Below, piece by piece: positions 32,191 to 62,746 of a stretch of DNA of 64,000 nt. Each line of letters begins with the position of its first letter. The first letter of the stretch is position 1. The position numbers and the translations under genes are program-made. Where the stretch lies: positions 23,215 to 87,214 of IMG/VR virus record IMGVR_UViG_3300031857_000082. One strand, given 5' to 3'. This stretch comes from a virus. The notes under the pieces are model-generated. The model made no database searches. It was not told the DNA's origin and saw nothing but the letters and a program-made list of their open reading frames with translations.

Positions 32191-32198
32191 ATTTTGAA

Positions 32199-32564: not shown

Positions 32565-32591
32565 ATTTATTACCTCCTTTTATATTATATC

Positions 32592-34952: not shown

Positions 34953-35284
34953 TATGCAATCTCCATTTTAAAAGCATTAAATGCTACCGAAGCAGTACTT
35001 GCAAATACGGACAATACGTCCTGTGCTCCCATCGTTATACCTTGGGTAAATGCTACAGTTTCATTACCTGCAATAGTTGCATTAAAAACAATATAATTAG
35101 CATTTGTAATTGAGACACCATTTGGCACTACCGCAATTCTGTAGGTTGCATCTGTAGATGCTGTATTGCAAACATTAATTGTTGAAACAACAGCCTGTGT
35201 AGAAACAGGAACTGTATAAAGCGTTGTAAGGGTGTTTGCCGCTGGCAAAACATAAGAAGGTGATTTAATTGTTTCTGTAGCCAT
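34952..35284 (-). CDS. Cassette 4 B-type beta protein (110 aa)
   Basis: B signature TLYTVPVSTQAV with NVCNTASTDATYRIAVVPNG behind it. The copy is nearly collinear with those of cassettes 1-3. ATG follows the A gene's TAA directly. Confidence 0.74.
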   Translation of the reverse strand: MATETIKSPSYVLPAANTLTTLYTVPVSTQAVVSTINVCNTASTDATYRIAVVPNGVSITNANYIVFNATIAGNETVAFTQGITMGAQDVLSVFASTASVAFNAFKMEIA

Positions 35285-35860: not shown

Positions 35861-35863
35861 TTA

Positions 35864-36823: not shown

Positions 36824-37158
36824 TAAGCCGTTACCTCCATTTTAAATGCTGTAAATGCAAGGGTAGAAGCAGAAGAATAAACTGCTAATATATCTCCAGC
36901 ATCTAATATAATTCCTTGATTAAATATGATTGATTCATATGCACTAATATTTGAATTATATACTAAATAATTTTGTTGTTCAATTGCTGCCCCGCCTGGT
37001 CTGATACCAATTCTAAATGTTGCAGCAGATGCACTTGTATTGCAAACGTTAATTGTAGGAATAACTGCTTGTGTTGAAGCAGGAACTGTATATAAAGAAG
37101 TTAAAGTATTTGCTGCAGGTGCAGAAAAAGAAGGCGTTTTCATTGTTTCTGTAGCCAT
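36823..37158 (-). CDS. Cassette 3 B-type beta protein (111 aa)
   Basis: Start ATG 37158 overlaps the A gene stop (TAATG); the longer frame upstream is a shadow. B signature SLYTVPASTQAV and an acidic-free tail with GDILAVYSSASTLAF. Sequence close to cassette 2 and 4 copies. Confidence 0.73.
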   Translation of the reverse strand: MATETMKTPSFSAPAANTLTSLYTVPASTQAVIPTINVCNTSASAATFRIGIRPGGAAIEQQNYLVYNSNISAYESIIFNQGIILDAGDILAVYSSASTLAFTAFKMEVTA

Positions 37159-37370
37159 TATGATGCTCCTATTGTCATTAGTGTGGCTGCCATTCCGCCA
37201 CCACCACCAGCACCTGACACGAGTTTCCACTCAGTTCCATTATACACTTTTAATGATGGTGAATTTGGATTAGAATTGTCTGTCCATAGTTGTCCAATTA
37301 CTGGACTAGTTGGCTCGGTTGAAGAAAATGATCCACCTCTTGCTTTTGATACTTCTCTTGCTCTAGACAT
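37158..37370 (-). CDS. Cassette 3 A-type adaptor, minimal form (70 aa)
   Basis: Lead SRAREVSKARGGSFSS is followed by GQLWTDNSNPNSPSLKVYNG and a Gly linker. It overlaps the previous adhesin stop by one base. Like the cassette 5 adaptor it has no shaft module. Confidence 0.7.
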   Translation of the reverse strand: MSRAREVSKARGGSFSSTEPTSPVIGQLWTDNSNPNSPSLKVYNGTEWKLVSGAGGGGGMAATLMTIGAS

Positions 37371-38356
37371 TATGCAAATGAGGATGGAATTGTAAAAGCA
37401 AATCTTATTACAACTATTCCAGATCCCCCTCCTCCAGCAATAGTTCCGCTAATTTGACCTCCGCCACCACCAGCCCCAGTATTTGCTGTTCCAGCAGTTA
37501 ATGAAGGTGTAGAACTACTTGATGCATTAGTAACCGATGTAGAATAGCCAGGAGCGTGAAACCCTCCATTACCTCCAGCACCATAAAATATATTTTGTCC
37601 AGTTATTGAAATTTGTAATCCAGGACCTCCTCCTCCAGCAGATCCTCCAGAATACCCTCCTATACCTTGTATTCCAGGTCCACCAGCACCTCCACCCCCA
37701 CCAGGTGTACCGTCATTTGTTGCAGAAGATGTTCCACCATTATTTCCCTGTCCAGCAGTTCCCGCACCACCAGCATAACTATTTGTTACAGAATAATTAC
37801 TGCCACCGCCGCCAGAACCTCCATTATTTCCAATATTTGTTCCACCACTTCCTCCACCAGCACCTCCACCAATTGCAGTATATGAAGAAAAAATACTATT
37901 ACTTCCATTTGTTGATCTAGTTCCTCCAGCACCAACTGTAATAGAATAAGAAGATTGATTTACTAAGACGTTACTTGCTTGAATAACTCCACCGCCACCA
38001 CCGCCACCAGAATATCCACTTCCACCTTTATCTCCACCTCCACCGCCAGCAACAACTAATATGTTTGCATTTGAATTTAAAAATGGTCCAGGTGTAAAAG
38101 TTCCTGAATTTAAAAATTGTTGAAAAGCATAATATGTTCCACCAGATTGATATGTTGTATATCCAGCATTTTGAATATATGTTAAATATCTTGAAGCACT
38201 TAATATTTGATTTTTTGGAATACCTAAGCCAGAAGCGTTTGCTAAATAATTTGATAATGCAGTATTAGTTCCTGCTTGAGAAAACATAGTACTTAGTTCT
38301 CCAACACTAAAAGAGTTACTAGATATTCTTGATTGATTTAAACTTGAAAATCCCAC
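37370..38356 (-). CDS. Cassette 2 C-type glycine-rich adhesin (328 aa)
   Basis: Ser/Asn-rich lead (SSLNQSRISSNSFSVGELST), helical segment SASRYLTYIQNAGYTTY, then YYAFQQFLNSGTFTPGP, a Gly-rich body and the C-terminus IRFAFTIPSSFA. Polyglycine runs alternate with Tyr or Asn turns. Same subgroup as cassette 3. Confidence 0.78.
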   Translation of the reverse strand: MGFSSLNQSRISSNSFSVGELSTMFSQAGTNTALSNYLANASGLGIPKNQILSASRYLTYIQNAGYTTYQSGGTYYAFQQFLNSGTFTPGPFLNSNANILVVAGGGGGDKGGSGYSGGGGGGGVIQASNVLVNQSSYSITVGAGGTRSTNGSNSIFSSYTAIGGGAGGGSGGTNIGNNGGSGGGGSNYSVTNSYAGGAGTAGQGNNGGTSSATNDGTPGGGGGAGGPGIQGIGGYSGGSAGGGGPGLQISITGQNIFYGAGGNGGFHAPGYSTSVTNASSSSTPSLTAGTANTGAGGGGGQISGTIAGGGGSGIVVIRFAFTIPSSFA

Positions 38357-38689
38357 TTATGCAGTCACCTCAGCGTAAAATCCTACAAAGCATACGCTGG
38401 CGGTAGATGCACGAACTGATAAAATATCTCCAGCACCCATGCTCATTCCTTGATTAATCATATATGTATCATTTCCAGCAATTGTTGCATCATAGATAAT
38501 ATGATTTTTATCTTCTAATGCAGCACCTCCTGGTCTAAAAGCAATTCTAAATGTTGCATCAGTAGATGCTGTGTTACAAATATTTATAGCAGAAAATATT
38601 GCTTGAGTTGCAGAAGGAACTGTATAAAGTGTTGTATAAGTATTGGCTGCTGGTTCAACCTGAACTGGTGACTTATAATTATTTGCCAT
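38357..38689 (-). CDS. Cassette 2 B-type beta protein (110 aa)
   Basis: B signature TLYTVPSATQAI. A cysteine near the end (SVCFVGFYAEVTA) is unique to this copy. One-base coupled to the adaptor before it. Confidence 0.72.
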   Translation of the reverse strand: MANNYKSPVQVEPAANTYTTLYTVPSATQAIFSAINICNTASTDATFRIAFRPGGAALEDKNHIIYDATIAGNDTYMINQGMSMGAGDILSVRASTASVCFVGFYAEVTA

Positions 38690-39505
38690 TTATATACCTG
38701 CCTGAAAGAATGGGTGGAGTCCTGCTTCTGACGCTCCAGATACAGCAATCCAAGTACTTCCATTATACACTTTTAATGCAGGAGCATTTGAATTTGTTGA
38801 GTCTATCCATAGGGTTCCAGCATTTGGAGCCGATGGAGATGCTGAAACATAAGCAATATTTGGTTCAAAATTAGCACTTGCAGTAGTTAATAAATACTTA
38901 TTATCACTTTCATTCTTTGTATATACATCTGCAATTCCAAAAGATTCAAAGGCATGAATTTCTATTAAATCCCCCGAAGATGCTGGCTCAGTTAAAGCAA
39001 CACTTGTTCCATTTGAAGCGGTATAGTCAATTCCTCTATTTATCAAAGTTCCATTTATATATACTTGTTCAAATCCAGGAGTATATATAAGATTTAAATT
39101 ATTATTGTCATACCCCGAAATTGTTGAAGTAGATGCTGATAGTGTTTTAGACCATCTTAAGAATGTTTGAATGTCAAGGCCTGTGCCTACGTCTTCGTTA
39201 CTGTCTACCCATAATGCACCTGGCTCAAGATCTGTTATATCTGGTTGTTCATTTTGAAATAATACAGTTCCTCCGCCACCACTAATTTCAGCCCACTCTG
39301 TTCCGTTCCATACTAATACTTGATCAGTATCAGTTTCAAATATTAATTGGCCTTCAGTTGGTGAACCTGGGCGGGTAGAAGAAGTACAAGTTAAAATTCC
39401 TTTTATTGATATTACTATCCAAGATTCACCATTAAAAATATAAGTAATATTAGAAGATGTTGTAAATTGCTGTCCTGCTGATGCACTACTTGGAAAAATT
39501 GACAA
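38690..39505 (-). CDS. Cassette 2 A-type adaptor, long form (271 aa)
   Basis: The start is TTG 39505, with AGGTGAT before it; no ATG fits. It has three A-like LW/LI motifs (GQLIFETDTDQVLVWNG, GALWVDSNEDVGTG, GTLWIDSTNSNAPALKVYNG) plus the GYDDNNLNLIYTPGFEQVYI shaft module, so it looks like tandem adaptors fused. It may reach further from the baseplate than the short adaptors. Confidence 0.72.
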   Translation of the reverse strand: MSIFPSSASAGQQFTTSSNITYIFNGESWIVISIKGILTCTSSTRPGSPTEGQLIFETDTDQVLVWNGTEWAEISGGGGTVLFQNEQPDITDLEPGALWVDSNEDVGTGLDIQTFLRWSKTLSASTSTISGYDNNNLNLIYTPGFEQVYINGTLINRGIDYTASNGTSVALTEPASSGDLIEIHAFESFGIADVYTKNESDNKYLLTTASANFEPNIAYVSASPSAPNAGTLWIDSTNSNAPALKVYNGSTWIAVSGASEAGLHPFFQAGI

Positions 39506-39531
39506 TTATATCACCTAGTTTATTATAGCAT

Positions 39532-39540
39532 TATGAAAAA
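39532..39540 (-). promoter_or_regulatory. Extended -10 box TGCTATAAT before cassette 2
   Basis: TGn-TATAAT lies 26 bases before the TTG start, with a ribosome site between. It lies directly after the cassette 1 adhesin stop. Confidence 0.5.
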
Positions 39541-39541
39541 A

Positions 39542-40936
39542 TTAGACTGGATATCTAATTACTATTATTCCTGAACCACCATTAAATCCATTATGGTCAT
39601 TGTTTTCTTCAACAACACCACCACCTCCACCGCCAGTGTTTGCACCACCATCAGAACCACCAGTGCGACCGTTACCATAACTTCCCTGAGCACCAGTTCC
39701 ACCACCACCTAAACCACCAGGAGTTGAAGTTCCATACTGTCCACCAGAACCTCCACCACCATAATAAACACTTGTACTATCTCTAAAAGGATTTATGTGT
39801 CCAATGCCTCCAGCAACTCCACTACTTGCTGCTCCAGCACCACCACCACCTAAGCCACCACTATTATTACCAAATGTAGTTGCGTCCCCATCTGATGCAT
39901 AAGTTCCAGAACCACCGCCACCGCCACCAGAAGCACCAGAAGTAGCACCGCCACCACCTGATCTTCCACCACCACCGCCACCTGCCGAAGAAACAGTTGC
40001 AAGCCCAGTACCGATAATTGTTGAAATTCCTCCTGTGCCACCTGCTCCACCAGTTGCTCCACTTCCACCGCCACCAATTGTGCAAGTAAGTATTGCATTT
40101 GGAAAAGTTTGAGATGTTCTAACTATTACACCACCAGCACCTCCACCGCCTGTACCAGAACCATTATAGCCACTTGATCGCCCACCACCGCCACCACCTG
40201 CTACAACAAGATAATCAACTATTGCAGAATTTCCAGTTATTGTAAAGTTAGAAGTTCCAGTAAATGTGTGAGAACGAAATCCTGAATATGTTGTAATAGT
40301 TCCACCAGTTGCAGTAAAAGGTGTTGCTGAATTAGAAATTGAAGAAGCAGCAGATACGCCATTAGCATTTGTAGCAGTTACTGTAAATGTATAAGATGTT
40401 CCTGCAGTTAAAGATGTAACATTAATAGGAGAAGATCCTCCTGATTGACTTGATCCAGTGTTTGGTATTGCATTATATGAAGTTATTGTTTTACCGCCAG
40501 TTCCATTACCAGTAAAAGCAACAGAAACCTTTTCAAATCCATGTGTAACTGATGTAATTGTAGGTGCTTCTGGAACAGTAGTTGCTGTAATTAAATTTGA
40601 AGGAATAGAATCTTCAGAAAATCCTACAGAGTTTGCAGAGTTAACTACAAATGTATATTGAGTGTTAGATTGAAGACCAGTTATTACTATTGGTGACGTT
40701 GTTCCTGTTGCTGTATAAGATCCTGGAGTTGATGTTACTCTATAAGATGTCGCAACCTCTCCTTCTATTGCTGGAGTAAAAAATACTGATGCTGCCCCAT
40801 TATTATATGAACGATTAATTCCTATATCAACTGCTGATATTCCACTTGGGCTTTGTGGAGTGTTGCCTAAAACTGCTTTTATTTTTTTTGTTTTAAATCC
40901 GTCTAATCCGCTTTCGCTAAATGAACTATATGCCAT
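39542..40936 (-). CDS. Cassette 1 C-type adhesin with two Fn3 domains (464 aa)
   Basis: Residues about 25-120 and 122-205 are fibronectin III-like domains (TSYRVTSTPGSYTATG, SNTQYTFVVNSANSVGFSED; then ITSYNAIPNTGSSQ, TSYTFTVTATNANGVSAAS). A Gly-rich adhesin (about 235-464) follows from IVDYLVVAGGGGGG to IIVIRYPV. Fn3 domains act as spacers in many phage fibres. Its C-terminal two thirds is a paralogue of the 767-aa fibre at 50076-52379. Confidence 0.8.
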   Translation of the reverse strand: MAYSSFSESGLDGFKTKKIKAVLGNTPQSPSGISAVDIGINRSYNNGAASVFFTPAIEGEVATSYRVTSTPGSYTATGTTSPIVITGLQSNTQYTFVVNSANSVGFSEDSIPSNLITATTVPEAPTITSVTHGFEKVSVAFTGNGTGGKTITSYNAIPNTGSSQSGGSSPINVTSLTAGTSYTFTVTATNANGVSAASSISNSATPFTATGGTITTYSGFRSHTFTGTSNFTITGNSAIVDYLVVAGGGGGGRSSGYNGSGTGGGGAGGVIVRTSQTFPNAILTCTIGGGGSGATGGAGGTGGISTIIGTGLATVSSAGGGGGGRSGGGGATSGASGGGGGGSGTYASDGDATTFGNNSGGLGGGGAGAASSGVAGGIGHINPFRDSTSVYYGGGGSGGQYGTSTPGGLGGGGTGAQGSYGNGRTGGSDGGANTGGGGGGVVEENNDHNGFNGGSGIIVIRYPV

Positions 40937-41271
40937 TAAGATACTTCGCTTCCAAATGCACTGAATGAAACAGATGCAGTTGAAGCGTATACACTTAAAG
41001 TATCTCCAGTTCCTAGAGTTACTCCAATTGTTAGTGATACAGAGTCTTTTGCTGTTACAGTTGCATCATATGCTATGTAGTGTTCTAAAGATAAAGATTC
41101 TCCGTTTGGTACAGCGGCAATTCTACAAGTAGTTGCAGACGCTGTAGTGTTACAAACATTTATTGTTGAAACAACAGACTGAGTAGATGCAGGAACTGTA
41201 TATAATGTTGAAACAGTTGCAGCGTTAGGTGAAACTTGTCCTAATATTTTAAAATTTTCTTGTTTTGCCAT
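40936..41271 (-). CDS. Cassette 1 B-type beta protein (111 aa)
   Basis: B signature TLYTVPASTQSV with a CRIAAVPNGESLSL stretch behind it. The first copy of the array in transcription order and the most divergent at the N-terminus (KQENFKILGQVSPN). Confidence 0.72.
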   Translation of the reverse strand: MAKQENFKILGQVSPNAATVSTLYTVPASTQSVVSTINVCNTTASATTCRIAAVPNGESLSLEHYIAYDATVTAKDSVSLTIGVTLGTGDTLSVYASTASVSFSAFGSEVS

Positions 41272-41272
41272 C

Positions 41273-41707
41273 TTATGCTCCCATCGTCATAAAGTTATTT
41301 GCTTTTAATGACGAGCCTGTGCCTGAAACTTCAATCCACTCTGTTCCATTATACACCTTTAGATTTATTGCATTTAAATCAGTATTGTCAAACCATATAT
41401 ACCCTGCCGATGCTCCAACTGGAGATGCTGAAGAATATACTGCATCTAGAATTCCAGAATCACCTTGTGGTCCTTGTGGTCCTGTTGCACCACTTGCACC
41501 CTGTGGTCCTTGTGGCCCACTTATGTTTACCCAATATTCTCCATCATATACAAATAATCCACCAGCCTCATCGTCATACCAAATGCTTCCAGTAATAGCA
41601 CCTTGTGGTGCACTTTGTGCAATATCAATTGTTGTTTGTGGTGTAGATGCATCACCAACTTGAACCCAAGAAGATCCATCCCATACATACATTGGTTTTA
41701 ATGACAT
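41273..41707 (-). CDS. Cassette 1 A-type adaptor with collagen-like segment (144 aa)
   Basis: Two adaptor motifs (MYVWDGSSWVQVG and GYIWFDNTDLNAINLKVYNG) flank a collagen-like run of Gly-x-Gln/Gly-x-x triplets (GPQGPQGASGATGPQGPQG), which should trimerise. TATAAT lies six bases before the ATG. Confidence 0.74.
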   Translation of the reverse strand: MSLKPMYVWDGSSWVQVGDASTPQTTIDIAQSAPQGAITGSIWYDDEAGGLFVYDGEYWVNISGPQGPQGASGATGPQGPQGDSGILDAVYSSASPVGASAGYIWFDNTDLNAINLKVYNGTEWIEVSGTGSSLKANNFMTMGA

Positions 41708-41713
41708 ATTTTA

Positions 41714-41719
41714 ATTATA
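41714..41719 (-). promoter_or_regulatory. -10 box TATAAT, leaderless type, opens cassette 1
   Basis: Extended box TGTTATAAT; TAAAAT separates it from the ATG. Confidence 0.5.
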
Positions 41720-41730
41720 ACACCGTCCTA

Positions 41731-42366
41731 TTAAATTGGATATCTTAAAATAACAATTCCATTTGCACCACTACCACCATTAGCATTACCTTGTTCATTT
41801 TGTCCGTTACCTCCACCGCCACCACTACCTGGTGTAGATCCATTAGATCCAGGAGAGGTAAATCCAAAATTACCTCCAGGACCAGGTTGTGAATAAGTTA
41901 CAGAAGTACCACTAATAGAAGAAACACTATTACTTCCAGAACCTGCACTACCGTTTGCTCCAAATCCACCTGCCCATCCTGCACCACTACCACCATTAGA
42001 AGTTATATTATTAAAACTACTACCAGTACCAGTTCCACCAGTACCTCTAAATCCACCACCTCCAGCACCACCTCCCACTGTTATTGAATAAGATTGAATT
42101 AATGGTGCAAATGTTCCGCTATTAAAAATTCCTGCACTACCACCATTTCCAGCACCTGATCCAGCACCTGATCCACCATAACCTGCACCACCACCACCAC
42201 CTCCGCCTCCCACAATAATATAACTTATTGCAGAAACTCCTTTAGTTATTGAAAAACTAGTACTTCCTGTAAATGTATGTATTCTAAAATTATTTAAATC
42301 TGATATTGTTCCACCCGTTGCTCTTGGAACTTGATTTGCTGTTGCTAATATACCTGGAATTGGCAT
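41731..42366 (-). CDS. Glycine-rich adhesin, short C-type (211 aa)
   Basis: No lead domain; it begins near the FRIHTFTGSTSFSITKG strand and ISYIIVGGGGGGGGAG, so it is the most compact adhesin. It ends NGIVILRYPI. It overlaps its upstream fibre by one base, and no B protein lies between them, so this is an incomplete cassette at the upstream edge of the array. Confidence 0.77.
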   Translation of the reverse strand: MPIPGILATANQVPRATGGTISDLNNFRIHTFTGSTSFSITKGVSAISYIIVGGGGGGGGAGYGGSGAGSGAGNGGSAGIFNSGTFAPLIQSYSITVGGGAGGGGFRGTGGTGTGSSFNNITSNGGSGAGWAGGFGANGSAGSGSNSVSSISGTSVTYSQPGPGGNFGFTSPGSNGSTPGSGGGGGNGQNEQGNANGGSGANGIVILRYPI

Positions 42367-43610
42367 TATGCTGTTAAGTCACCTATTGCTACCCAAGTGT
42401 CTGTTCCTCTTTTAATTAAAGTAGCACTTGACCATTGAGCACGTAGTTTTAATCCTGGAGTTGAATTTATAGTAACACCTACGGTAGCAACAATTGTTGT
42501 TTGTCCACTTCCAGTTTGTAATATTGTTATTTGAGTTCCTATAGGAAATGGAACTGATGAATTTAAAGGAACTGTTAAATTATTAGCAGATGCTACATTC
42601 ATTTCAACAATTTGATCTGCATTTCCAATAACCAATGTGTAACTTGCAGTCTCTGGATCAAAAGTAACTAATTTATCTGCTTTTGTTGACAAATCTAATG
42701 TAGCCCAAGATGCTGATGCACCATTTGTTATTAAATATTTTCCATCATTTCCAGTTTGAGATGGCAAGGCATCTACTTCTTCCCAAGATGTTTGCGATCC
42801 ATCTGTACTTAAATATTTTCCTGCATTTCCACCTTGACTTGGTAATGCTTCAAAACTTGCAATTGCTGAATCTGTATAGGCACTAGCAGATGAATATGCT
42901 GCTGTACTTGCTGTCACTATTCCAGAATTTAAATTTGATATAGTTGCATATGTTGATGATGCAGTTGTTTGTGTTAAATATAAACTAGAAGCATTATTTT
43001 GTGTTAAATATGTTGATGATGCTGAATTTGTAGATAAGTATTGTCCATGTATGTGATTAACCGCTACAGCCTCTTCTACGACCCCATCTGAGTCAATCCA
43101 TACAGATCCTACCTCTAGGCCTAAAGCAACCGCATTTGGGCTTGCAGACTGGTATAAGACGGCACCACTGCCAAGTTCTTTAAATGTACTTCCATCTTTT
43201 GTAAATTCCCATCTATCATTTGATTCATTCCATTGAATAGAAACATTTGGACTTGATCCTCTTTCTATTTCTATACCCGCAGAAAGTGAGGGGGATCCAG
43301 AAACTCCATAATTCAAAACTATTAAATTATCTTCTATATTAAGTTCATTAACATTTAAATAAGTAGTTGATCCTGATACTGTTAAATTACCATCAATTAT
43401 TAAATCACCAGTTATATTACCCCCAGAAATTTGAAGGTATATAGAAGAAGCATTTGCTTGTGTTAAATAAGGAGTTAAATCAATATTGGCTAATTCTTCT
43501 TTAGTAGCATAAATAACAGATGCACTCTGAGCACTTATTCCTGTGCCGTCACCGACTAGGATCCATTGAGATCCAGTCCACATATATAATGGTTTTCTAG
43601 TTTGACTCAT
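42366..43610 (-). CDS. Tail fibre with A-type N-terminus (414 aa)
   Basis: N-terminal MYMWTGSQWILVG-like motif, a shaft with LTVSGSTTYLNVNELNIEDN and IEIERGSSPNVSIQWNES (shared with the 426- and 834-aa fibres), then repeats of YLTQxNASSxYL (about 200-225). The C-terminal domain (about 320-414, VNNLTVPLNSS-like beta rolls ending RGTDTWVAIGDLTA) is a common phage fibre tip. TATAAT lies six bases before the ATG. Confidence 0.72.
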   Translation of the reverse strand: MSQTRKPLYMWTGSQWILVGDGTGISAQSASVIYATKEELANIDLTPYLTQANASSIYLQISGGNITGDLIIDGNLTVSGSTTYLNVNELNIEDNLIVLNYGVSGSPSLSAGIEIERGSSPNVSIQWNESNDRWEFTKDGSTFKELGSGAVLYQSASPNAVALGLEVGSVWIDSDGVVEEAVAVNHIHGQYLSTNSASSTYLTQNNASSLYLTQTTASSTYATISNLNSGIVTASTAAYSSASAYTDSAIASFEALPSQGGNAGKYLSTDGSQTSWEEVDALPSQTGNDGKYLITNGASASWATLDLSTKADKLVTFDPETASYTLVIGNADQIVEMNVASANNLTVPLNSSVPFPIGTQITILQTGSGQTTIVATVGVTINSTPGLKLRAQWSSATLIKRGTDTWVAIGDLTA

Positions 43611-43616
43611 GATTTA

Positions 43617-43622
43617 ATTATA
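43617..43622 (-). promoter_or_regulatory. -10 box TATAAT, leaderless type
   Basis: GTATAATTAAATCATG, with six bases between box and ATG. Confidence 0.5.
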
Positions 43623-43649
43623 CCTTAGTAGATTCATATTTTCATTTAA

Positions 43650-44273
43650 TTATACTGGCTGATAAGTAAACTGCCCATAATATCTTTTAAATGTACCTCC
43701 GCAAGGGTCTCCATATGTACCATTATTTGCATTTATACTTACAGTTGTCCGTGGCATGCTTACTGAGTTAGATGATCCAGCATTACACCCTCCATAACTA
43801 AACGATCCACATCCTCCATTTGGTGTGCCATAACTTGAAAAATCTGTTCTTGTAAATATAAAACCGCTTGGAGCAGTGACACTTCCACTTTGATTTTCAT
43901 TCATAGTTAAACAACTATATCCAACATTGATTGATCTTACAACTAAAGAAAAATCTCTAAAAGACCTTCCTCCAGTTCCTATTGCACCTATTGTAAAATT
44001 AAATGTTGTTCCAGAATTGTAGTCTGCTAATCCAGTTGGTGTTCCACTAATCGTTCCATTTGAAGTATTTAAAGATACTCCAGTTGGCAAAGATCCGTTA
44101 GAAACGTAGTATGATCCAGCACCGTCTGCTTGAACAGTTGTGCTATAAGACCTTGTTGTATAAATAGTTGTTCCACTTAATAATTGACCAGCGTTAGTAA
44201 CCCATAGTGGTATTCTTCCAGCAGATTTTCCCACTGTACCAAAGTTTCCAGACAACGTTGTTGTAAATGGCAT
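43650..44273 (-). CDS. Ig-like plus SUEL-type lectin protein (207 aa)
   Basis: Residues 42-112 look like a putative Ig domain (SLPTGVSLNTSNGTISGTPT). Residues about 119-205 match the SUEL / rhamnose-binding lectin pattern: TDFSSYGTPNGGCGSF, a central Cys and the YGDPCGGTFKR box. Cysteines are C121, C155, C163 and C191. Such lectins bind rhamnose or galactose. The protein stands alone among fibres and would be a receptor-binding tip or cap. AGGAG lies four bases before the ATG. Confidence 0.72.
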   Translation of the reverse strand: MPFTTTLSGNFGTVGKSAGRIPLWVTNAGQLLSGTTIYTTRSYSTTVQADGAGSYYVSNGSLPTGVSLNTSNGTISGTPTGLADYNSGTTFNFTIGAIGTGGRSFRDFSLVVRSINVGYSCLTMNENQSGSVTAPSGFIFTRTDFSSYGTPNGGCGSFSYGGCNAGSSNSVSMPRTTVSINANNGTYGDPCGGTFKRYYGQFTYQPV

Positions 44274-44280
44274 ATTTCTC

Positions 44281-45360
44281 CTAAATGTTTAAATTAGAGT
44301 TTGCAATTATTATTGTTGAACTACTTGTCCTAAATACAGTAAAGTTAAATATATCTATTTTACCCACAGAACTTGTTGGTGTTGGAGCACTTCCTCCAAG
44401 CCATCTAATTGTTTGAGAGATTCCATCTATCATAAATATGCTAGGTATATAACCAGTTGCACCTTGTGTTACTACAACTGATATTGTTTGACTTCTTAAG
44501 TTAACATTAGGAATATTTGTTACATTTAGTGTAAAGTTTGCAGATGGTGCATTTGCTATATAGAATAAGCCTCCGTCATTAAAATTTACTGTTGCTGATC
44601 CAGATACTATAGAAACTTCTGTTATTTTTTCTCTTATTTCTTGAACATCCAATATTCCATCAATTTGAGCATTATTAAATAGTGATGTTCCAGTAAATGT
44701 TGGGCTTGACAAAGGAGAGTAAGTAGCACTGGCATTTGATTGAGTTAGATATGTAGATGTAGCGTTTGATTGTGTTAAATATGTGGCACTAGCATTTGAC
44801 TGCGTTAAATAAACAGATTGTATTGTTGAGTAAAAATTAGGATCATCATTCAATGCCGCTGATAATTCGTTAAGGGTATCAAGAGTTCCTGGTGCAGAAT
44901 CTATTAAGAAATTAACTGCAGCAGCAGAGGCTGTATTTATACCAGAGGAAACCTGGGCATTTGTATATGATATTAAAGATGAAGATGCAGAATTTGTATA
45001 TGCACTTGCACTTGTATAAGCCGCAGCCGAGGCGGTATTGATAGTAGAAGTCAAATCTATATTATTTAAATCAACAATAGTAGCATATGTAGCAGAAGCA
45101 TTATTAATAGTTAAATATGTATTAGATGCAGATGATAATGATAAATATTGAGAATCATGATTATGTGTTATACCCGCAATATCGTCTTCTACCGTGCCGT
45201 CTTCGTCTACCCAGAGTGTTCCTGCTGAAGGATTGCTTGGAGAAGCAGATTGATAGTAAATCTCACCGCTACCGCCACCACCGTCACCAATTGGAACCCA
45301 TTCAGTTCCATTCCAAACGTATGCTGGCCTTGTTGTTGTTGATATTTGTGCAGATGCCAT
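44281..45360 (-). CDS. Tail fibre with tandem YLTQSNASAT repeats (359 aa)
   Basis: The N-terminus (YVWNGTEWVPIGDGGGGSG) and GTLWVDEDGTVEDD are A motifs. Ala/Ser-rich helical segments (INTASAAAYTSAS, AAAVNFLIDSAPGTLD) alternate with YLTQSNASAT-type 10-residue repeats, three in tandem near residues 180-215. The C-terminal domain (about 230-359) is beta-rich and ends IIIANSNLNI. The repeats probably form a trimeric shaft. Confidence 0.7.
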   Translation of the reverse strand: MASAQISTTTRPAYVWNGTEWVPIGDGGGGSGEIYYQSASPSNPSAGTLWVDEDGTVEDDIAGITHNHDSQYLSLSSASNTYLTINNASATYATIVDLNNIDLTSTINTASAAAYTSASAYTNSASSSLISYTNAQVSSGINTASAAAVNFLIDSAPGTLDTLNELSAALNDDPNFYSTIQSVYLTQSNASATYLTQSNATSTYLTQSNASATYSPLSSPTFTGTSLFNNAQIDGILDVQEIREKITEVSIVSGSATVNFNDGGLFYIANAPSANFTLNVTNIPNVNLRSQTISVVVTQGATGYIPSIFMIDGISQTIRWLGGSAPTPTSSVGKIDIFNFTVFRTSSSTIIIANSNLNI

Positions 45361-45366
45361 TATTTA

Positions 45367-45372
45367 ATTATA
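45367..45372 (-). promoter_or_regulatory. -10 box TATAAT, leaderless type
   Basis: GTATAATTAAATAATG. AGGAG lies 14 bases before the ATG, too far for a normal ribosome site. Confidence 0.5.
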
Positions 45373-45377
45373 CTCTC

Positions 45378-46358
45378 CTAAGTTAAATACCTAATTATAA
45401 CTATACCGCTACCACCAGCAGATGCACCGCCACCGCCACCACCTGTATTTGCTGTTCCAGCAGTTCCTCCAGATGTTCCTCCAGCACCACCGCCGCCACT
45501 TCCTCCAGCACCGCCAGAAGTATTTCCATTGCCACCGCCGCCGCCAGCATATGTTACCGCAGTTCCAGATATTGATGATGAAGAGCCTGCACCGCCTGCT
45601 CCACCAACTCCATCACTAGGAGCATTAGAACCAACAGCACCTTTACCGCCACCACCACCACCTGATTGAACAGTTACTTGCCAAGTACCATTACCTGTTC
45701 CACCATTATTTCCTTGACCTGCTGTTCCAGTACCACCTGCTCCTGCAGTAGAGTTACCTCCACCACCAGATCCACCATTTGCACCAGCACGTTGAGTTGC
45801 ATCAGCATCTCCACCTCCGCCACCTCCGCCTCCGCCTATAGCAGTAAGTGATGAAAATACTGAGTCTGAACCATTATTTCCTCTTTTATTACCAGCATTT
45901 ATAGTTCCACCAGCACCAACTGTGACTGGATAACTACCAGCACTTACGTTTAAACTAGATCCAGTAAGCATACCTCCAGCACCACCACCTGCAGCATAAT
46001 ATCCTAGTGTACTATTTGAAGTTCCACCTGCACCACCGCCAGCAACTACTAAATATTCTACACTTAACGTTTCATTTGCTACAAAAGTATCAGTTGCTGT
46101 AAAAGTATGTATTGTATATGCACCAGATGTTGTTTTGGTTCCACCTAATGCTTTAACTGCAGTTAGTTTAGGGTTTCTGAAAGAATTTGATCCATAAATT
46201 TGCATTACTGGAGCACTTGCTGTTGAAGTATCAATCCAGAGTCTACCATTTGAATTTAAAGATGAAGGAGAAGCAGAAGATATAACTATTCTACTATTTA
46301 AATCATTAATAGTTGCAGCGGTTGTAAAAATCTTACTTGTATCTCTTGTTCTTCCCAT
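45378..46358 (-). CDS. Glycine-rich adhesin with fused A lead (326 aa)
   Basis: The lead MGRARDTSKIFTTAATIND and GRLWIDTSTASAPVMQIYGS is an A adaptor fused in-frame to a C adhesin, from VEYLVVAGGGAGG to IVIIRYLT. So it fuses the parts that are separate genes in the cassettes. Closely similar to the next gene. Confidence 0.78.
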   Translation of the reverse strand: MGRTRDTSKIFTTAATINDLNSRIVISSASPSSLNSNGRLWIDTSTASAPVMQIYGSNSFRNPKLTAVKALGGTKTTSGAYTIHTFTATDTFVANETLSVEYLVVAGGGAGGTSNSTLGYYAAGGGAGGMLTGSSLNVSAGSYPVTVGAGGTINAGNKRGNNGSDSVFSSLTAIGGGGGGGGGDADATQRAGANGGSGGGGNSTAGAGGTGTAGQGNNGGTGNGTWQVTVQSGGGGGGKGAVGSNAPSDGVGGAGGAGSSSSISGTAVTYAGGGGGNGNTSGGAGGSGGGGAGGTSGGTAGTANTGGGGGGASAGGSGIVIIRYLT

Positions 46359-55033: not shown

Positions 55034-55270
55034 ATGGCAAAGTCCAAAGTAAAAGATAAAGAAGAGATTAAGTACGAGTTAACCGCCTTAGATCGTTGCG
55101 ATCGTTGTGGCTCTCAGGCGTGGGTCAAAGTCGGCGGGGTAAATGGAGAATTACTATTCTGTTCTCATCACTACAATAAAGTCGAAAAAAGTATTAAAGA
55201 ATGGGCATTCAATATCCTAGATGAAAGAGAACGTTTAATCGAAAATCGATTGACAGGCTCGGACAAATAG
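55034..55270 (+). CDS. DUF7455-like zinc protein (78 aa)
   Basis: The core TALDRCDRCGSQAWVKV then LLFCSHHYNK, with CxxC and CxHH, is the pattern of the actinobacterial DUF7455 family, seen in hosts and phages. The C-terminal half is a charged helix. Function unknown; nucleic-acid binding is a reasonable guess. It is expressed from a strong promoter, so it is likely early and abundant. It is the best single pointer to an actinobacterial host. Confidence 0.78.
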   Translation: MAKSKVKDKEEIKYELTALDRCDRCGSQAWVKVGGVNGELLFCSHHYNKVEKSIKEWAFNILDERERLIENRLTGSDK

Positions 55271-55853: not shown

Positions 55854-56003
55854 TTATTTCCTTACCCCCGATTTTTTTGATCTATTAAGACACAATTTAC
55901 ATTGAGATCTATATCCATCACTAGATTTATCATATTTATCAAAATCTGAAAAATTTTTCATTTCCAAACACCATATGCATTTCTTAGTATTGGATTTGAT
56001 CAT
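55854..56003 (-). CDS. CxxC zinc microprotein or HNH-type remnant (49 aa)
   Basis: KKCIWCLEMKNFSDF and DGYRSQCKLCLNRSK form the zinc-ribbon pattern typical of the N-terminus of phage HNH/VII-type endonucleases, but the catalytic part is absent. The start is ATG 56003, six bases after TATAAT. It is either a real microprotein or a truncated relic; no catalytic remnant is visible downstream. Confidence 0.55.
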   Translation of the reverse strand: MIKSNTKKCIWCLEMKNFSDFDKYDKSSDGYRSQCKLCLNRSKKSGVRK

Positions 56004-56009
56004 ATATCT

Positions 56010-56015
56010 ATTATA
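56010..56015 (-). promoter_or_regulatory. -10 box TATAAT, leaderless type
   Basis: AGATAT separates TATAAT from ATG; no ribosome site is present. Confidence 0.45.
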
Positions 56016-56274
56016 GCCAAGATATCTATATACCCCGAAAAATGAGATACCCCCCACGTACCGAAGTAGAGGTGGAGGGCCTGGTTCTCAGGGAACATAT
56101 CCCTTACTAGATCCGTATAAAATATTATAAACCCGTTTTTATAAAAATCTGAATTTTTGTCTGATTTGTACGATACGTGATTTAAAAAGATTTTTCAAGA
56201 TAATTAGTGAGCCCATATGGGATAAGATTTAATTATCCTACCCCGATAAGATTTTGAACATCTAACTTTATAAG

Positions 56275-56711: not shown

Positions 56712-56870
56712 TTATTTATTCCAATCATTTAATTTAATTATCTTTTCTAATTGCTCATTGGTAACTATTGCTTTTAGTGTGCCTAGTAGTGCATAGTCTG
56801 CTAACACACTATCACCATATTGGGCATTTAATTCGCTGTGAATTAAATCTATCATTGTATCCTTAGTCAT
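56712..56870 (-). CDS. Helical microprotein (52 aa)
   Basis: Mostly helical and acidic (TKDTMIDLIHSELNAQYGDS, TNEQLEKIIKLND). The ATG directly follows the stop of the upstream microgene. No domain recognised; member of a coupled micro-operon. Confidence 0.6.
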   Translation of the reverse strand: MTKDTMIDLIHSELNAQYGDSVLADYALLGTLKAIVTNEQLEKIIKLNDWNK

Positions 56871-56951: not shown

Positions 56952-57080
56952 TTAGTAACCTGCCTTATCCATAGCACAATCGTTGCATAGTGCGAACAAT
57001 TCTAAACTAGGTGTGCTTAGTTCGATTTCTTCTAAGCATTTGTAGCACATGGCTATTGTTAGTGTTGATTTCTTTTTCAT
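56952..57080 (-). CDS. CxxC zinc microprotein (42 aa)
   Basis: CYKC and CNDC 21 residues apart, in a short Ser/Leu-rich frame. AGAAAGGT lies six bases before the ATG. First gene of a leftward micro-operon (57080 to 56275). Same class as the zinc microproteins on the plus strand at 58-59 kb. Confidence 0.65.
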   Translation of the reverse strand: MKKKSTLTIAMCYKCLEEIELSTPSLELFALCNDCAMDKAGY

Positions 57081-57150
57081 TTATTTACCTTTCTAGTAAT
57101 AACTTAAACCTATCATATACCCCCGACAGATTTGGGAGGGGGTCTTGCAT

Positions 57151-57214
57151 GTCTCTGGCTTATTTGCTAGGGCTCATCCCTTTCGGGCTTATTTGCCTAG
57201 GCTCATCCAGAGAC
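57151..57214. ncRNA. Paired 23-bp repeats inside an 8-bp inverted repeat
   Basis: GTCTCTGG (57151-57158) and CCAGAGAC (57207-57214) are perfectly complementary. They frame two 23-bp direct repeats (57157-57179 and 57186-57208) differing only in the central GCTAGGG / GCCTAGG, with CTTTCG between. The layout suggests a structured RNA leader or 3' UTR, since it lies between the 33-aa gene and the micro-operon on the minus strand. Function unknown. Confidence 0.45.
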
Positions 57215-57226
57215 TAAACCTGTGGG

Positions 57227-57328
57227 CTATTCGCCTCGCCAGATTTTGTAGAACTGGTCGTAATCAGGTTCTACACCCTCTGGGAGTTCTTGCTCCCAAG
57301 CCTCTAGGGCTTCAACGTATCCTCTCAT
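57227..57328 (-). CDS. Acidic microprotein (33 aa)
   Basis: The frame is helical and acidic (YVEALEAWEQELPEGVE, DYDQFYKIWRGE). AAGGAGG lies seven bases before the ATG, and TATGAT lies further up. No domain. Transcribed leftward away from the DnaA-box cluster. Confidence 0.6.
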   Translation of the reverse strand: MRGYVEALEAWEQELPEGVEPDYDQFYKIWRGE

Positions 57329-57437
57329 TTGGATACCTCCTTAATTTCTATCTATACTTTAATCATAAATGGGGGGTCTGACAATTTTGGCCTATTTAGA
57401 TGAACGCCAGGTTAACAATAGATGAACAAATTTAGGG

Positions 57438-57503
57438 TTATCAACAGGCAACACGCCGTATATGTTAATAAAGTTATACACAATGTTAGTAACCTGTGGA
57501 TAA
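57438..57503. other. DnaA-box cluster, possible origin or DnaA-controlled site
   Basis: Within 66 bases: TTATCAACA (57438-57446, one mismatch), TTATACACA (57474-57482) and TGTGGATAA (57495-57503, TTATCCACA on the minus strand). Two match the strict TTATNCACA consensus. The region is AT-rich and gene-free (57329-57573). Host DnaA could act here in replication or transcription. Confidence 0.5.
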
Positions 57504-57515
57504 AGCGGGCGTCAG

Positions 57516-57545
57516 GATCGGGCGTGTCGCACCTTTACGTTAAGA
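57516..57545 (+). repeat. 30-bp repeat, copy 1, part of a perfect hairpin
   Basis: Identical over 30 bases to 57709-57738. Here GGGCGTGTC and GACACGCCC form a 9-bp stem with a 15-base loop. The second copy cannot make this hairpin but makes another. Confidence 0.75.
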
Positions 57546-57573
57546 CACGCCCTTGCCGAATGCAGGCTATTGG

Positions 57574-57636
57574 TTAGTTATAACTTCTAGCACAAGAACG
57601 GCACATGTAATTAGAGGTGCAAGAACATTGAATCAT
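57574..57636 (-). CDS. CxC/CxxC zinc microprotein (20 aa)
   Basis: One of the smallest plausible genes: CSC and CRSC in 20 residues. AAAGGA lies five bases before the ATG, and a TTGACT-N17-TAGGTT promoter lies at 57658-57686. With four cysteines it could hold one zinc. The ribosome site and own promoter argue against chance. Confidence 0.5.
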   Translation of the reverse strand: MIQCSCTSNYMCRSCARSYN

Positions 57637-57657
57637 TTATTTCCTTTCGTTAATTAA

Positions 57658-57686
57658 AACCTATCACTACCCCCTGACAAAGTCAA
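57658..57686 (-). promoter_or_regulatory. Promoter TTGACT-N17-TAGGTT with TGTCAG box in spacer
   Basis: Boxes are on the minus strand. The spacer holds TTTGTCAGGGGG, a motif shared by other promoters in this region. Confidence 0.5.
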
Positions 57687-57708
57687 ATCGACACGCCGCT
57701 GACGCCCC

Positions 57709-57738
57709 GATCGGGCGTGTCGCACCTTTACGTTAAGA
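57709..57738 (+). repeat. 30-bp repeat, copy 2
   Basis: An upstream CGACACGCC (57689-57697) pairs with GGCGTGTCG inside this copy to form a 9-bp stem. A similar CGACACGCC element lies at 58016-58024. Confidence 0.75.
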
Positions 57739-57759
57739 TGCGAGGGTTCCCGATGCAGA

Positions 57760-57954
57760 CTACCTTAGTCTAACAAATGTAGGCCAGGTAATTCCACAAG
57801 CCTCTTGAAATTTAATGTCATTAAAGTTTTTATTTTCTGCAAAAAACAAATCACCAAATTCCAAAACAATTTCTTCAAAAGTAGTTTGAGGAATTTCATC
57901 CTTAAATTCTTTTAATAGGGAAGCAACCTTTTCAAAGTGTTGTCTAGTCATCAT
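57760..57954 (-). CDS. Small conserved-type actinophage protein (64 aa)
   Basis: The pattern TRQHFEKVASLLKEF and LFFAENKNFNDIKFQEACG resembles a small helical protein often found in actinophages. AAAGGA lies seven bases before the ATG. Function unknown; the neighbouring promoter carries the TTGTCG box. Confidence 0.65.
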   Translation of the reverse strand: MMTRQHFEKVASLLKEFKDEIPQTTFEEIVLEFGDLFFAENKNFNDIKFQEACGITWPTFVRLR

Positions 57955-58030
57955 TTTTATTTCCTTTGTTTGTAGTTAGTTTTAATTTATCACATACCCC
58001 CGACAATTTGCAAACCGACACGCCGATCCT

Positions 58031-58072
58031 GACGCCCCGAAACGGACATTTAGGTCATTTAAGATGTTAAGA
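58031..58072 (+). repeat. Promoter-associated repeat R1
   Basis: GACGCCCCGA, then TTTAAGATGTTAAGA. This is the copy upstream of the zinc microprotein operon promoter. Confidence 0.6.
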
Positions 58073-58098
58073 AAAAATATGCCGACATGCCGACCCCC

Positions 58099-58126
58099 TT
58101 GCTATACATTGTCAGACCCCTATGCT
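58099..58126 (+). promoter_or_regulatory. Promoter of the zinc microprotein operon (TTGCTA-N16-TATGCT)
   Basis: The spacer contains ATTGTCAGACCCC, the shared box. The transcript would start near 58133 and run to the terminator at 59806-59842. Confidence 0.55.
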
Positions 58127-58161
58127 AGGATTTTAATATGATAAAAGATAAGGATACAAAA

Positions 58162-58278
58162 ATGAAATATACAGCAAAATGTTGGTATTGTGAAATTGAT
58201 ATTGAAATGCCTACCCCCGACTTTCTAAGTGATGAGGTAGTTTGCTACGATTGTGGCATGAGTAAGGTAATGGCATAA
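58162..58278 (+). CDS. CxxC zinc microprotein a (38 aa)
   Basis: CWYC and CYDC 21 residues apart, with acidic residues between them. AAGGA lies seven bases before the ATG. First of ten coupled genes (58162-59740). The paired CxxC layout is a zinc knuckle; a role in protein or nucleic-acid binding is likely but unproven. Confidence 0.68.
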   Translation: MKYTAKCWYCEIDIEMPTPDFLSDEVVCYDCGMSKVMA

Positions 58279-58424
58279 TGTTAAATGATGAGTGGAAAGG
58301 CATAACCTGTTTATTCTGTGACGAATATGAGATTGTGCATATAAGTAGCAAGGATTGGTTTTTATGTCTGCCATGTGGGCTAGACTATGAGTTATCAAAA
58401 GAAAAGGAAAAAATAAATGAATAA
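58278..58424 (+). CDS. CxxC zinc microprotein b (48 aa)
   Basis: Start overlaps the previous stop (TAATG). CLFC and CLPC 19 residues apart, then a charged helical tail (ELSKEKEKINE). Its spacing and tail differ from its neighbours, so these are not simple duplicates. Confidence 0.66.
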   Translation: MLNDEWKGITCLFCDEYEIVHISSKDWFLCLPCGLDYELSKEKEKINE

Positions 58425-58578
58425 TATAATCAACTTACAGAGTTGCGTGGTATGCACTAAAATTGGAATTCATTGGCTATGTCATAAATGTGAGTCAAGA
58501 ATTCATCACCCTAGTGTCTATGTAAAAGTTGAACGCTATCGTGATAGAATAAATCAAAAACTAAGTGAGGTTAAATAA
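58417..58578 (+). CDS. CxxC zinc microprotein c (53 aa)
   Basis: It starts inside the end of b (8-base overlap) and ends in TAATG with the next gene. CVVC and CHKC with a basic tail (RIHHPSVYVKVERYRDRIN) suggest RNA or DNA contact. Confidence 0.66.
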   Translation: MNNIINLQSCVVCTKIGIHWLCHKCESRIHHPSVYVKVERYRDRINQKLSEVK

Positions 58579-58826
58579 TGAGTAATTCAACACAACTATG
58601 GTATGCAGGAACTATCACAAAATTTGGTGATATACAAAAAATCTATGATGATGAAACACTATGGACTCTTGAAAGTAAAGACGGCTCATATGCTAGTGTT
58701 ATTCTAAATAAAGAAATGATTGCTAGTTGGCGTTGTGAGGGTGCATGGAACTTAGCAAGACAAAAGGCTGAGTCTCTAATTCTTGAAAGAGAACAACTAG
58801 AACAAGAGGGATGGGTTACTAACTAA
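58578..58826 (+). CDS. Unknown operon protein (82 aa)
   Basis: The only non-zinc gene in the front of the operon. Beta strands (AGTITKFGDIQKIYDDETLW) precede a charged helix (ARQKAESLILEREQLEQEGW). Coupled on both sides. Confidence 0.65.
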   Translation: MSNSTQLWYAGTITKFGDIQKIYDDETLWTLESKDGSYASVILNKEMIASWRCEGAWNLARQKAESLILEREQLEQEGWVTN

Positions 58827-59014
58827 TGAATACATATTCAGAAGATAACGATTGCCCTAAGTGTGACCATAGTGGTGAAATTATCTTTCATCAATATGTA
58901 AATAGTTTCTCTTGCCAATGGTGTGGTTTTTGGTGGGACTTTGGTGTTGATATTGACAAATTAACAAATCTATTGAATAATCATAATATCAAAAGAACAG
59001 AGGTAATTCAATGA
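58826..59014 (+). CDS. CxxC zinc protein d (62 aa)
   Basis: CPKC and CQWC framing FHQYVNSF, a zinc-ribbon-like layout, then an acidic helical tail (DIDKLTNLLNNHN). It overlaps the next gene by ATGA. Confidence 0.68.
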   Translation: MNTYSEDNDCPKCDHSGEIIFHQYVNSFSCQWCGFWWDFGVDIDKLTNLLNNHNIKRTEVIQ

Positions 59015-59109
59015 TAGCAACATGTCAAGAGTGTAATAAAAAGTTTGACATATTTGATGAACTAGAGGCTAGCGAATTGCTAGACGGACACGATTGTATC
59101 TCATACTAA
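59011..59109 (+). CDS. Small CxxC protein e (32 aa)
   Basis: One CQEC plus a lone late Cys (HDCISY) and an acidic centre. Could bind one zinc with two cysteines and a histidine, or be a degenerate copy. Confidence 0.55.
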   Translation: MIATCQECNKKFDIFDELEASELLDGHDCISY

Positions 59110-59216
59110 TGACTACTTGCATAATTTGTAATGATGATATAAACTATGACGAAGACGGAGGACACATATATCCAGACGGATGTGTAGTGTGTCCAGATTG
59201 CGAGGGTAAGGAATAA
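59109..59216 (+). CDS. CxxC zinc microprotein f (35 aa)
   Basis: CIIC, then CVVCPDC with acidic residues between (NDDINYDEDGG). Five cysteines, the densest of the set. Confidence 0.62.
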   Translation: MTTCIICNDDINYDEDGGHIYPDGCVVCPDCEGKE

Positions 59217-59404
59217 TGCAAGCACAATGGATAGATTTGCTTAAACAAATACAAGGCAAACTAAAAACATCAGGCTACCAATTACAAGAGGTTGCAACTT
59301 ATAGTGAAACTAACTATAATGAAGAAATAATGAGATTGTCAGAGCATTGTGACAAAATGGTTAGAAACATAGACCTACTACTATCGGGAGTTAAAAGTGC
59401 CTAA
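59216..59404 (+). CDS. Unknown helical operon protein (62 aa)
   Basis: Helical and amphipathic (AQWIDLLKQIQGKLKTSG, EEIMRLSEHCDKMVRNID). No zinc motif. Coupled by TAATG; overlaps the next GTG start. Confidence 0.6.
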   Translation: MQAQWIDLLKQIQGKLKTSGYQLQEVATYSETNYNEEIMRLSEHCDKMVRNIDLLLSGVKSA

Positions 59405-59666
59405 AGAAAAGCCAATACATAAAATGGTTGAAGAAGTATTTGATAAAGATGTAACTCAAGATTTAATAGATGAGTTAGCAGAAGAAAAAACTTTCATAGT
59501 TAATACAATGAAAAAATTTGTAGAGACAGATGAAATATGGCAACAACTAGTAGATAACATTGAAGCCAGAAAAGCATTTCTAGTTAATTTACAAATGCTA
59601 TTTCTAAATGATATAGAAAATCAAACTCTAATTGAATTAGCAACTACTAAATGGGGTAATGACTAA
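59397..59666 (+). CDS. Acidic helical operon protein (89 aa)
   Basis: It starts with GTG 59397, after GGGAG and six bases. Highly acidic helix-rich sequence (VFDKDVTQDLIDELAEEK, DEIWQQLVDNIEARKAF). A DNA mimic or protein-binding role is conceivable but not shown. Confidence 0.62.
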   Translation: MPKEKPIHKMVEEVFDKDVTQDLIDELAEEKTFIVNTMKKFVETDEIWQQLVDNIEARKAFLVNLQMLFLNDIENQTLIELATTKWGND

Positions 59667-59740
59667 TGGAAATAATGTTTATTGGATTTATATTCTTATG
59701 TGTATCCTGGTATTTAATTAGTAAAGAGAAACCTTTGTAA
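59666..59740 (+). CDS. Membrane microprotein, last gene of operon (24 aa)
   Basis: A hydrophobic stretch (MFIGFIFLCVSWYLI) with a basic end KEKPL, coupled by TAATG. A minimal single-pass membrane peptide. Confidence 0.55.
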   Translation: MEIMFIGFIFLCVSWYLISKEKPL

Positions 59741-59805: not shown

Positions 59806-59842
59806 GCCCCAGCCTAGGAACGGAGCAGAACCAGACTGGGGC
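59806..59842 (+). terminator. Terminator of the zinc microprotein operon
   Basis: A GCCCCAG/CTGGGGC stem (7 bp) with a 23-base loop is followed by TTTAGTTCTT. A second hairpin GTCTAGG/CCTAGAC (59854-59881) lies behind and may serve the opposite strand. Confidence 0.65.
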
Positions 59843-59894
59843 TTTAGTTCTTAGTCTAGGAAAAATGAAGTAAACCTAGACCAAGAAGTTTTTA

Positions 59895-60071
59895 CTAGAT
59901 TGCTACTTGAACAATCTTATATTCTGGCTTAACAGTTGTCCAGCGTTCTTTACCTCGAACATCTAAACGAACACGCACCGAGCCAGATGGGTTCTGTATA
60001 ATCTCTTTGACTATACCTTTTGCACCACTCTTTTGAGTAGTGAGTTCTTGACCTAATTGAATTAGTGTCAT
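59895..60071 (-). CDS. Small SH3-like or KOW-like protein (58 aa)
   Basis: Read on the minus strand from ATG 60071. It is strand-rich and basic: QKSGAKGIVKEIIQNPSGSV, RVRLDVRGKERWTTVK. A small beta barrel such as KOW/SH3 is plausible. AAAGGA is the ribosome site. Strong promoter TTGACT-N17-TATGAT directly upstream. Confidence 0.65.
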   Translation of the reverse strand: MTLIQLGQELTTQKSGAKGIVKEIIQNPSGSVRVRLDVRGKERWTTVKPEYKIVQVAI

Positions 60072-60103
60072 TTGCTTCCTTTCGTTGTTGTTGATACAAA
60101 CTT

Positions 60104-60132
60104 ATCATACACGACTGACAGGTGCAAGTCAA
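60104..60132 (-). promoter_or_regulatory. Promoter TTGACT-N17-TATGAT with CTGTCAG in spacer
   Basis: Good -35 and -10 match at ideal spacing on the minus strand; the spacer holds the shared TGTCAG box. It diverges from the promoter at 60194. Confidence 0.75.
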
Positions 60133-62717: not shown

Positions 62718-62746
62718 TTGACATTGTCGGTGGGTTAATGTAAGAT
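62718..62746 (+). promoter_or_regulatory. Promoter TTGACA-N17-TAAGAT of the DUF932-like gene
   Basis: Perfect -35, good -10. The spacer begins TTGTCGGTGGG, the shared box. Confidence 0.8.

Follow-up and report, generated by a model that had tools for sequence, protein, structure and literature searches.

A conserved row of overlapping CxxC microprotein genes in a virus with a very likely actinobacterial host

Introduction

Small phage proteins are largely unexplored, and several described systems share features with the locus presented here. TraR and lambda Orf73 (DksA-type C4) are small phage or plasmid proteins with a CxxC-x17-CxxC zinc site, and in this group a small C4 protein reprogrammes the host RNA polymerase (PMC9239242). 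Lar (PF14354) is likewise a small CxxC...CxxC protein. Larger sets are described for haloarchaeal viruses: the part of the report on HF1-like viruses cited here gives, for Serpecor1 and Hardycor2, 12–14 CxxC proteins of <100 aa each, outside the virion genes (PMC7230728), and the cited part of the His2 report gives three small early genes that lie close together near a genome end, some of them with CxxC (PMC7221443). Actinobacteriophages, in turn, carry small-ORF regions in which unknown small genes lie densely near GP88 and vary in a mosaic manner.

Here, we analysed a 64-kb stretch (the window) that forms the right part of the 87,214-base record of an uncultivated virus and in which ten small genes, named g1 to g10 in their order, are chained by short overlaps. 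Like the haloarchaeal viruses, the window encodes several CxxC proteins of <100 aa outside the virion genes, and like the actinobacteriophage regions it shows dense small genes of mosaic content near GP88. However, the halovirus microproteins belong to archaeal viruses and have no significant homology to the operon proteins (Hardyhisp2 CxxC protein vs. g5: E 0.3), as judged by g5, g4, g9 and g7-type queries; a row of six genes coupled by 1-, 4- or 8-nt overlaps is not described in the cited parts of the two halovirus reports (PMC7230728, PMC7221443). Unlike the actinobacteriophage small-ORF regions, g4, g9 and the g7-type query had no match among 50,697 phage records, in which g5 gave matches at chance level only. 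Scattered CxxC microproteins are common both in the wider phage group and in haloviruses; new is their dense coupled array.

Results

The terminase of the virus is 56% identical to those of large Streptomyces siphoviruses (e.g., Yaboi and Genie2). A WhiB-like gene (L095, ~1–230, minus strand; PF02467, E 9e-12) lies outside the window, where it runs into the contig's left edge; WhiB has been reported to be restricted to actinobacteria and was proposed as an indicator of actinophages (PMC10202952). Together with GP88 and the gene of a 78-aa DUF7455 protein (55034–55270, plus strand; PF24254, E 5e-19), the bacterial relatives of which are actinobacterial, these genes make an actinobacterium the very likely host. 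A search with g7, g4 and g9 against 251 genomes of the Planktophila order, run without a positive control, gave no match.

A sequence-only reading of the locus had proposed ten overlapping genes of 24–89 aa, six of them with CxxC motifs, and all ten frames are indeed present. They are listed below with the number of genomes in which each was found and with dN/dS values, which range from 0.18 to 0.56 and are simple pooled pairwise estimates that ignore kinship among the sequences.

58162–59740, plus strand: ten-gene operon, adjacent genes chained by short overlaps
58162–58278, plus strand: g1, 38 aa, CxxC...CxxC; 9 genomes including the window; dN/dS 0.56
58278–58424, plus strand: g2, 48 aa, CxxC...CxxC; 14 genomes; dN/dS 0.27
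58417–58578, plus strand: g3, 53 aa, CxxC...CxxC and an invariant His-Pro; 14 genomes; dN/dS 0.43
58578–58826, plus strand: g4, 82 aa, without CxxC; 14 genomes; dN/dS 0.30
58826–59014, plus strand: g5, 62 aa, CxxC-x16-CxxC; 3 operons plus L093 and L094; dN/dS 0.37
59011–59109, plus strand: g6, 32 aa, CxxC...HxC; 6 genomes; dN/dS 0.21
59109–59216, plus strand: g7, 35 aa, site C4 C7 C28 C31; 12 genomes; dN/dS 0.36
59216–59404, plus strand: g8, 62 aa, without CxxC; 13 genomes; dN/dS 0.50
59397–59666, plus strand: g9, 89 aa, acidic, without Cys; 13 genomes; dN/dS 0.18
59666–59740, plus strand: g10, 24-aa hydrophobic peptide, likely a single membrane span; 5 genomes; dN/dS 0.18

Two CxxC motifs each are found in g1, g2, g3, g5 and g7, while g6 combines CxxC with HxC; these six proteins span 32–62 aa. 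From g1 to g10, the junctions overlap by 1, 8, 1, 1, 4, 1, 1, 8 and 1 nt. In 500 shuffles preserving the nearest-neighbour composition of the operon stretch, the longest overlap chain comprised 3 genes vs. 10 in the real sequence, and the plus strand of this stretch contains six double-motif ORFs vs. a mean of 0.005 in shuffles. Across the whole 87-kb contig, 11 such ORFs, including the six of the operon, compare with 0.75 expected. For g1, an alternative upstream ATG at 58138 would give a protein of 46 aa; the start at 58162 is the better choice, since relatives start there and the ribosome-binding site is placed for it.

The following expression signals flank the operon:

58109–58131, plus strand: promoter block TTGTCAGACCCCTATGCTAGGAT with a -10-like TATGCT at 58121–58126
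58150–58154, plus strand: ribosome-binding site AAGGA of g1, recognised by its sequence, in a leader conserved among relatives
59806–59842, plus strand: hairpin GCCCCAG...CTGGGGC followed by TTTAGTT, from folding
59850–59894, plus strand: conserved terminator-like hairpin CTTAGTCTAGG...CCTAGACCAAG with a T-rich tail

The promoter block, which in its exact pattern occurs once in the window, precedes the first operon gene, slightly varied, in each of the 14 relatives whose sequence covers the 5' end (consensus TTGTCAGACCC-Y-TRTG-N-TA(G), with slight variation), and the leader GATAAAAG.TAGGATATAAAAATG is found in nearly all of them. The terminator-like hairpin stands at the same place in L005, L002, L007, L090 and L015, with paired changes in the stem, as compared by eye. 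Generic sigma-70 and terminator scans scarcely exceeded shuffles, and the assignment of both signals is therefore based on conservation, which backs the proposed single promoter and single terminator. Scans for RNA families found none.

Related promoter blocks also precede minus-strand small genes at 57080, 57328, 57636 and 57954 as well as the gene at 60071. In this repeated form, a TATGATA-like -10 closely preceded by TGTC(A/G)G (57080–58131, 60071–60121 and 62724–62742), the promoter-like block stands ahead of several small-gene units on both strands. With three mismatches allowed, the pattern occurs at chance level, for which reason only sites with 0–2 mismatches upstream of genes were used. 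Between the promoter-like blocks lie CGACACGCCG-like repeats, with four in the window vs. 0.2 expected. A 58-aa protein encoded at 59895–60071 (minus strand) shows a weak, sub-threshold likeness to KOW domains and was matched in 84 of the loci compared.

Searches with GP88, g4, g5, g2, g7 and g9 yielded 14 distinct IMG/VR contigs with a collinear operon, along with several near-identical copies (L002, L005, L006, L007, L008, L009, L011, L012, L013, L014 (partial), L015, L085, L086 and L090); L014, L085 and L086 end at contig edges, and gene absences there were left uncounted. The order of CxxC microgenes, for which a search in related phages had been suggested, is thus shared: (A42) (B52) (g1) g2 g3 g4 (29-aa hydrophobic peptide or g5) (g6) (g7) g8 (C54) (74-/143-aa gene) g9 (short hydrophobic peptide) (E77), where only the genes in brackets vary. 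Of the ten operon genes, g2, g3, g4, g8 and g9 are near-universal, g7 is common, and g1, g5, g6 and g10 are variably present, the slot of g10 being filled elsewhere by other short hydrophobic peptides. Including the window, exact overlaps of 1, 4 or 8 nt occur at 120 of 133 junctions (57 of 1 nt, 48 of 8 nt and 15 of 4 nt). That close relatives would have lost the frames and cysteines had been named beforehand as an outcome refuting the microproteins; the relatives were checked for this, and both are kept. The ten frames are real coding genes.

The four paired cysteines are invariant among the homologues of g1, g2, g3, g5 and g7, as are CxxC and HDC among those of g6, and this invariance of the paired ligands persists even at ~30% identity. 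Both g3 and g8 occur as two divergent alleles; those of g3 are only 24–33% identical, and cysteines make up four of their eight invariant columns. In g7, the fifth cysteine (C25) is Ser in many relatives, which assigns the putative metal site to C4, C7, C28 and C31. With two invariant ligand pairs (CxxC with CxxC or HxC), all six proteins show the broad zinc-ribbon or zinc-knuckle ligand pattern. A metal site in each of them is well supported by these sequence comparisons, and zinc is the likely metal. AlphaFold gave models of modest confidence that contain no metal: g7 was predicted as a small two-knuckle fold (pLDDT 79), with zinc-binding RING-, LIM- and GATA-type domains as best, weak and not significant matches (E 0.057), and g4 as four strands and one helix (pLDDT 69), without a significant match in the PDB. 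The sole strong match to g4 is its homologue A0A6J5P5Z3 (UniProt, 70% identity), which comes from an uncultured phage and is annotated as uncharacterised.

Scans with Pfam, PHROGs, NCBIfam and PADLOC gave sub-threshold zinc-ribbon resemblances only and placed none of the ten proteins in a known family at curated thresholds; a PDB sequence search gave no significant match either, and neither approach linked them significantly to any protein of known function. Members of g5 match Lar weakly over the zinc site (best E 0.0007), but stay below the cut-off (19 vs. 28.6 bits) and differ from it in the remainder of the protein. Weak matches of g1 and g6 to LysW-type and other zinc ribbons (PF21344, PF13717, NF041070) cover the CxxC region and are all below cut-off (PF21344: g1 13.9 and g6 16.5 vs. 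27 bits; NF041070: g1 19.3 and g6 15.6 vs. 75), and g6 has HxC where the second CxxC would stand. For the sigma-G inhibitor Gin (PF10764), g7 reached 13.3 vs. 27 bits. The N-terminal DxxDxA helix of the TraR/DksA C4 family is absent from all ten proteins, none of which matched this family by sequence or profile, and the WhiB pattern CxxC-x5-C with GVWGG is likewise absent from them.

Individual genes are exchanged as cassettes between these phages. The DNA of g5 is 97% and 93% identical to that of L090 and L009, respectively, whereas other shared genes reach 50–84%; similarly, g3 is 93% identical to its counterpart in L012 and 49–55% identical to those of the other relatives compared. The g5 gene of L009 ends in a copy of the g4 3' end (GAGGGTTGGGTNACTAACTAATG) and leads into g7, a structure that insertion of g5 through recombination at the g4/g7 junction would produce. 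Moreover, g5 occurs in other surroundings in L093 and L094, and the g7 domain stands alone in L131 and forms the C-terminal part of longer proteins in L133–L135. L132 (1506–4046) holds a separate row of small genes that overlap or stand close together, several of them encoding CxxC proteins, and the g7-type domain is all that this row shares with the window operon; being made almost wholly of other families, it suggests more than one origin of this layout. Among more distant phages with GP88, 64 loci, including some duplicates, contain 214 short ORFs of the paired-CxxC type vs. ~15 expected, which indicates that CxxC microproteins are a widespread trait of this phage group. The window's clade is marked by the coupled row of several CxxC genes, with L132 as a separate example. 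Descent from a single duplicated CxxC family was considered and found unsupported: profile comparisons of g1/g2, g1/g7, g2/g3 and g2/g7 gave probabilities of 0.5–4%, at the little power of such short profiles.

Similar microproteins had also been pointed out on the nearby minus strand, and the three named loci held up to different degrees: that at 56952 is a true paralogue of g1, that at 55854 carries CxxC...CxxC, and that at 57574 is conserved in spite of its 20 aa. Together with a fourth gene, they are:

56952–57080, minus strand: paralogue of g1, 42 aa, CxxC...CxxC; 41% identity to g1, cysteines invariant
56712–56870, minus strand: 52-aa gene; its homologues (B52) lie inside the plus-strand operon of 12 relatives
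55854–56057, minus strand: 67-aa ORF with CxxC...CxxC; homologues in 16 loci, near-duplicates included
57574–57636, minus strand: 20-aa peptide with four cysteines; 75–85% identity in L005 and L012, own promoter-like block

Discussion

In summary of the earlier reading, the coupled and conserved CxxC operon with its retained cysteines stands, metal binding has become likely, and the locus emerges in addition as an accessory module with exchanging content. We propose that the ten genes would form one transcription unit, translated by coupled re-initiation at the 1-, 4- and 8-nt overlaps, presumably early in infection. The six tiny, mostly acidic products could be zinc-knuckle or zinc-ribbon proteins, each folding around one Zn2+ with four Cys, or three Cys and one His, as its ligands, and each docking on a protein. 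Together, they would represent an exchangeable kit of small effectors for different host (or phage) proteins, which during infection would divert transcription or translation or else counter a defence, and recombination at the conserved junctions between genes may add and remove their cassettes. We give about even chances to this reading as protein-binding zinc effectors used as an exchangeable kit in host takeover or counter-defence.

Protein targets are favoured over nucleic acid because g2, g6 and g7 (pI 4.1–4.8) as well as g4 are acidic; g3, being neutral to basic, could bind nucleic acid. A role as putative adaptors redirecting host machinery, as put forward in the sequence-only reading, is plausible. 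Turnover combined with fixed order and coupling would be expected of effectors with a host-dependent value, while an optional effector role fits the core genes less well, almost every relative having them. In its most specific form, the proposal would describe a combinatorial zinc-adaptor kit, i.e., a coupled row of slots filled with interchangeable zinc microproteins, each for another host target and recombined at start/stop junctions. This version is rather speculative; if true, phages would refit the row of slots through recombination at conserved start/stop junctions.

Alternatively, the small zinc proteins could regulate the phage's own genes by binding the repeated TGTCAG-type promoters or RNA polymerase and thereby time its programme. 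Similar promoter blocks ahead of several small-gene units on both strands, the neutral to basic g3 and the precedent of transcriptional regulation by zinc proteins of this size (Brz, PMC2253796; TraR family, PMC9239242) would fit such a role, but the strongly acidic g2, g6 and g7, and the differing gene content of phages with the same promoter block, make it rather unlikely. We attach a similarly low probability to a counter-defence island, in which several proteins block restriction or other defences in a Lar-like manner. It would be in line with the rapid cassette exchange and the weak likeness of g5 members to Lar, whereas this likeness is sub-threshold, core cassettes are near-universal and PADLOC, which however lists defence rather than counter-defence, returned nothing convincing.

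Fixed order and exact coupling across relatives, as well as the nearly constant company of g2, g3, g4, g8 and g9, could also point to ten subunits of one phage complex, kept in fixed proportion by coupled translation; since many relatives lack g1, g5, g6, g7 and g10 or have other genes in their place, and g5 and g7 are also found without the other operon genes, we consider this very unlikely. Even less probable, to an extent that we hardly reckon with it, are redox, iron-sulphur or metal-buffer proteins in place of zinc-folded binders: CxxC is also used by redox and Fe-S proteins, and four-Cys Fe-S proteins of the WhiB type are in use in the host group, but paired CxxC motifs with spacers of 8–20 residues are a zinc-knuckle arrangement, a fold of thioredoxin size and the WhiB pattern are lacking, and g6 contributes a His. 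That the frames, every one of them very short, are chance ORFs without products can practically be dismissed in view of the shuffles, the frames conserved in relatives, dN/dS below 1 and the retained coupling and cysteines.

The preferred reading as an exchangeable set of zinc effectors is of interest since phages may assemble effector sets in this way, with order and coupling fixed and cassettes swapped at the junctions. Moreover, the locus offers a compact, evolutionarily validated set of six metal-site proteins of 32–62 aa, together with their natural variants.

Elsewhere in the window, a B12-dependent (class II) ribonucleotide reductase is encoded at 21520–23460 (minus strand), and many paralogous glycine-rich genes, with GGGGGG repeats and ends in VIRY/VILRY, stand in a row at 31268–46358 (minus strand), probably encoding tail or fibre proteins. 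A further Cys-rich protein (62 aa, DUF6171) is encoded at 25849–26037 (minus strand), and similar proteins of the KC..CGCFM..K type are present in several related phages.
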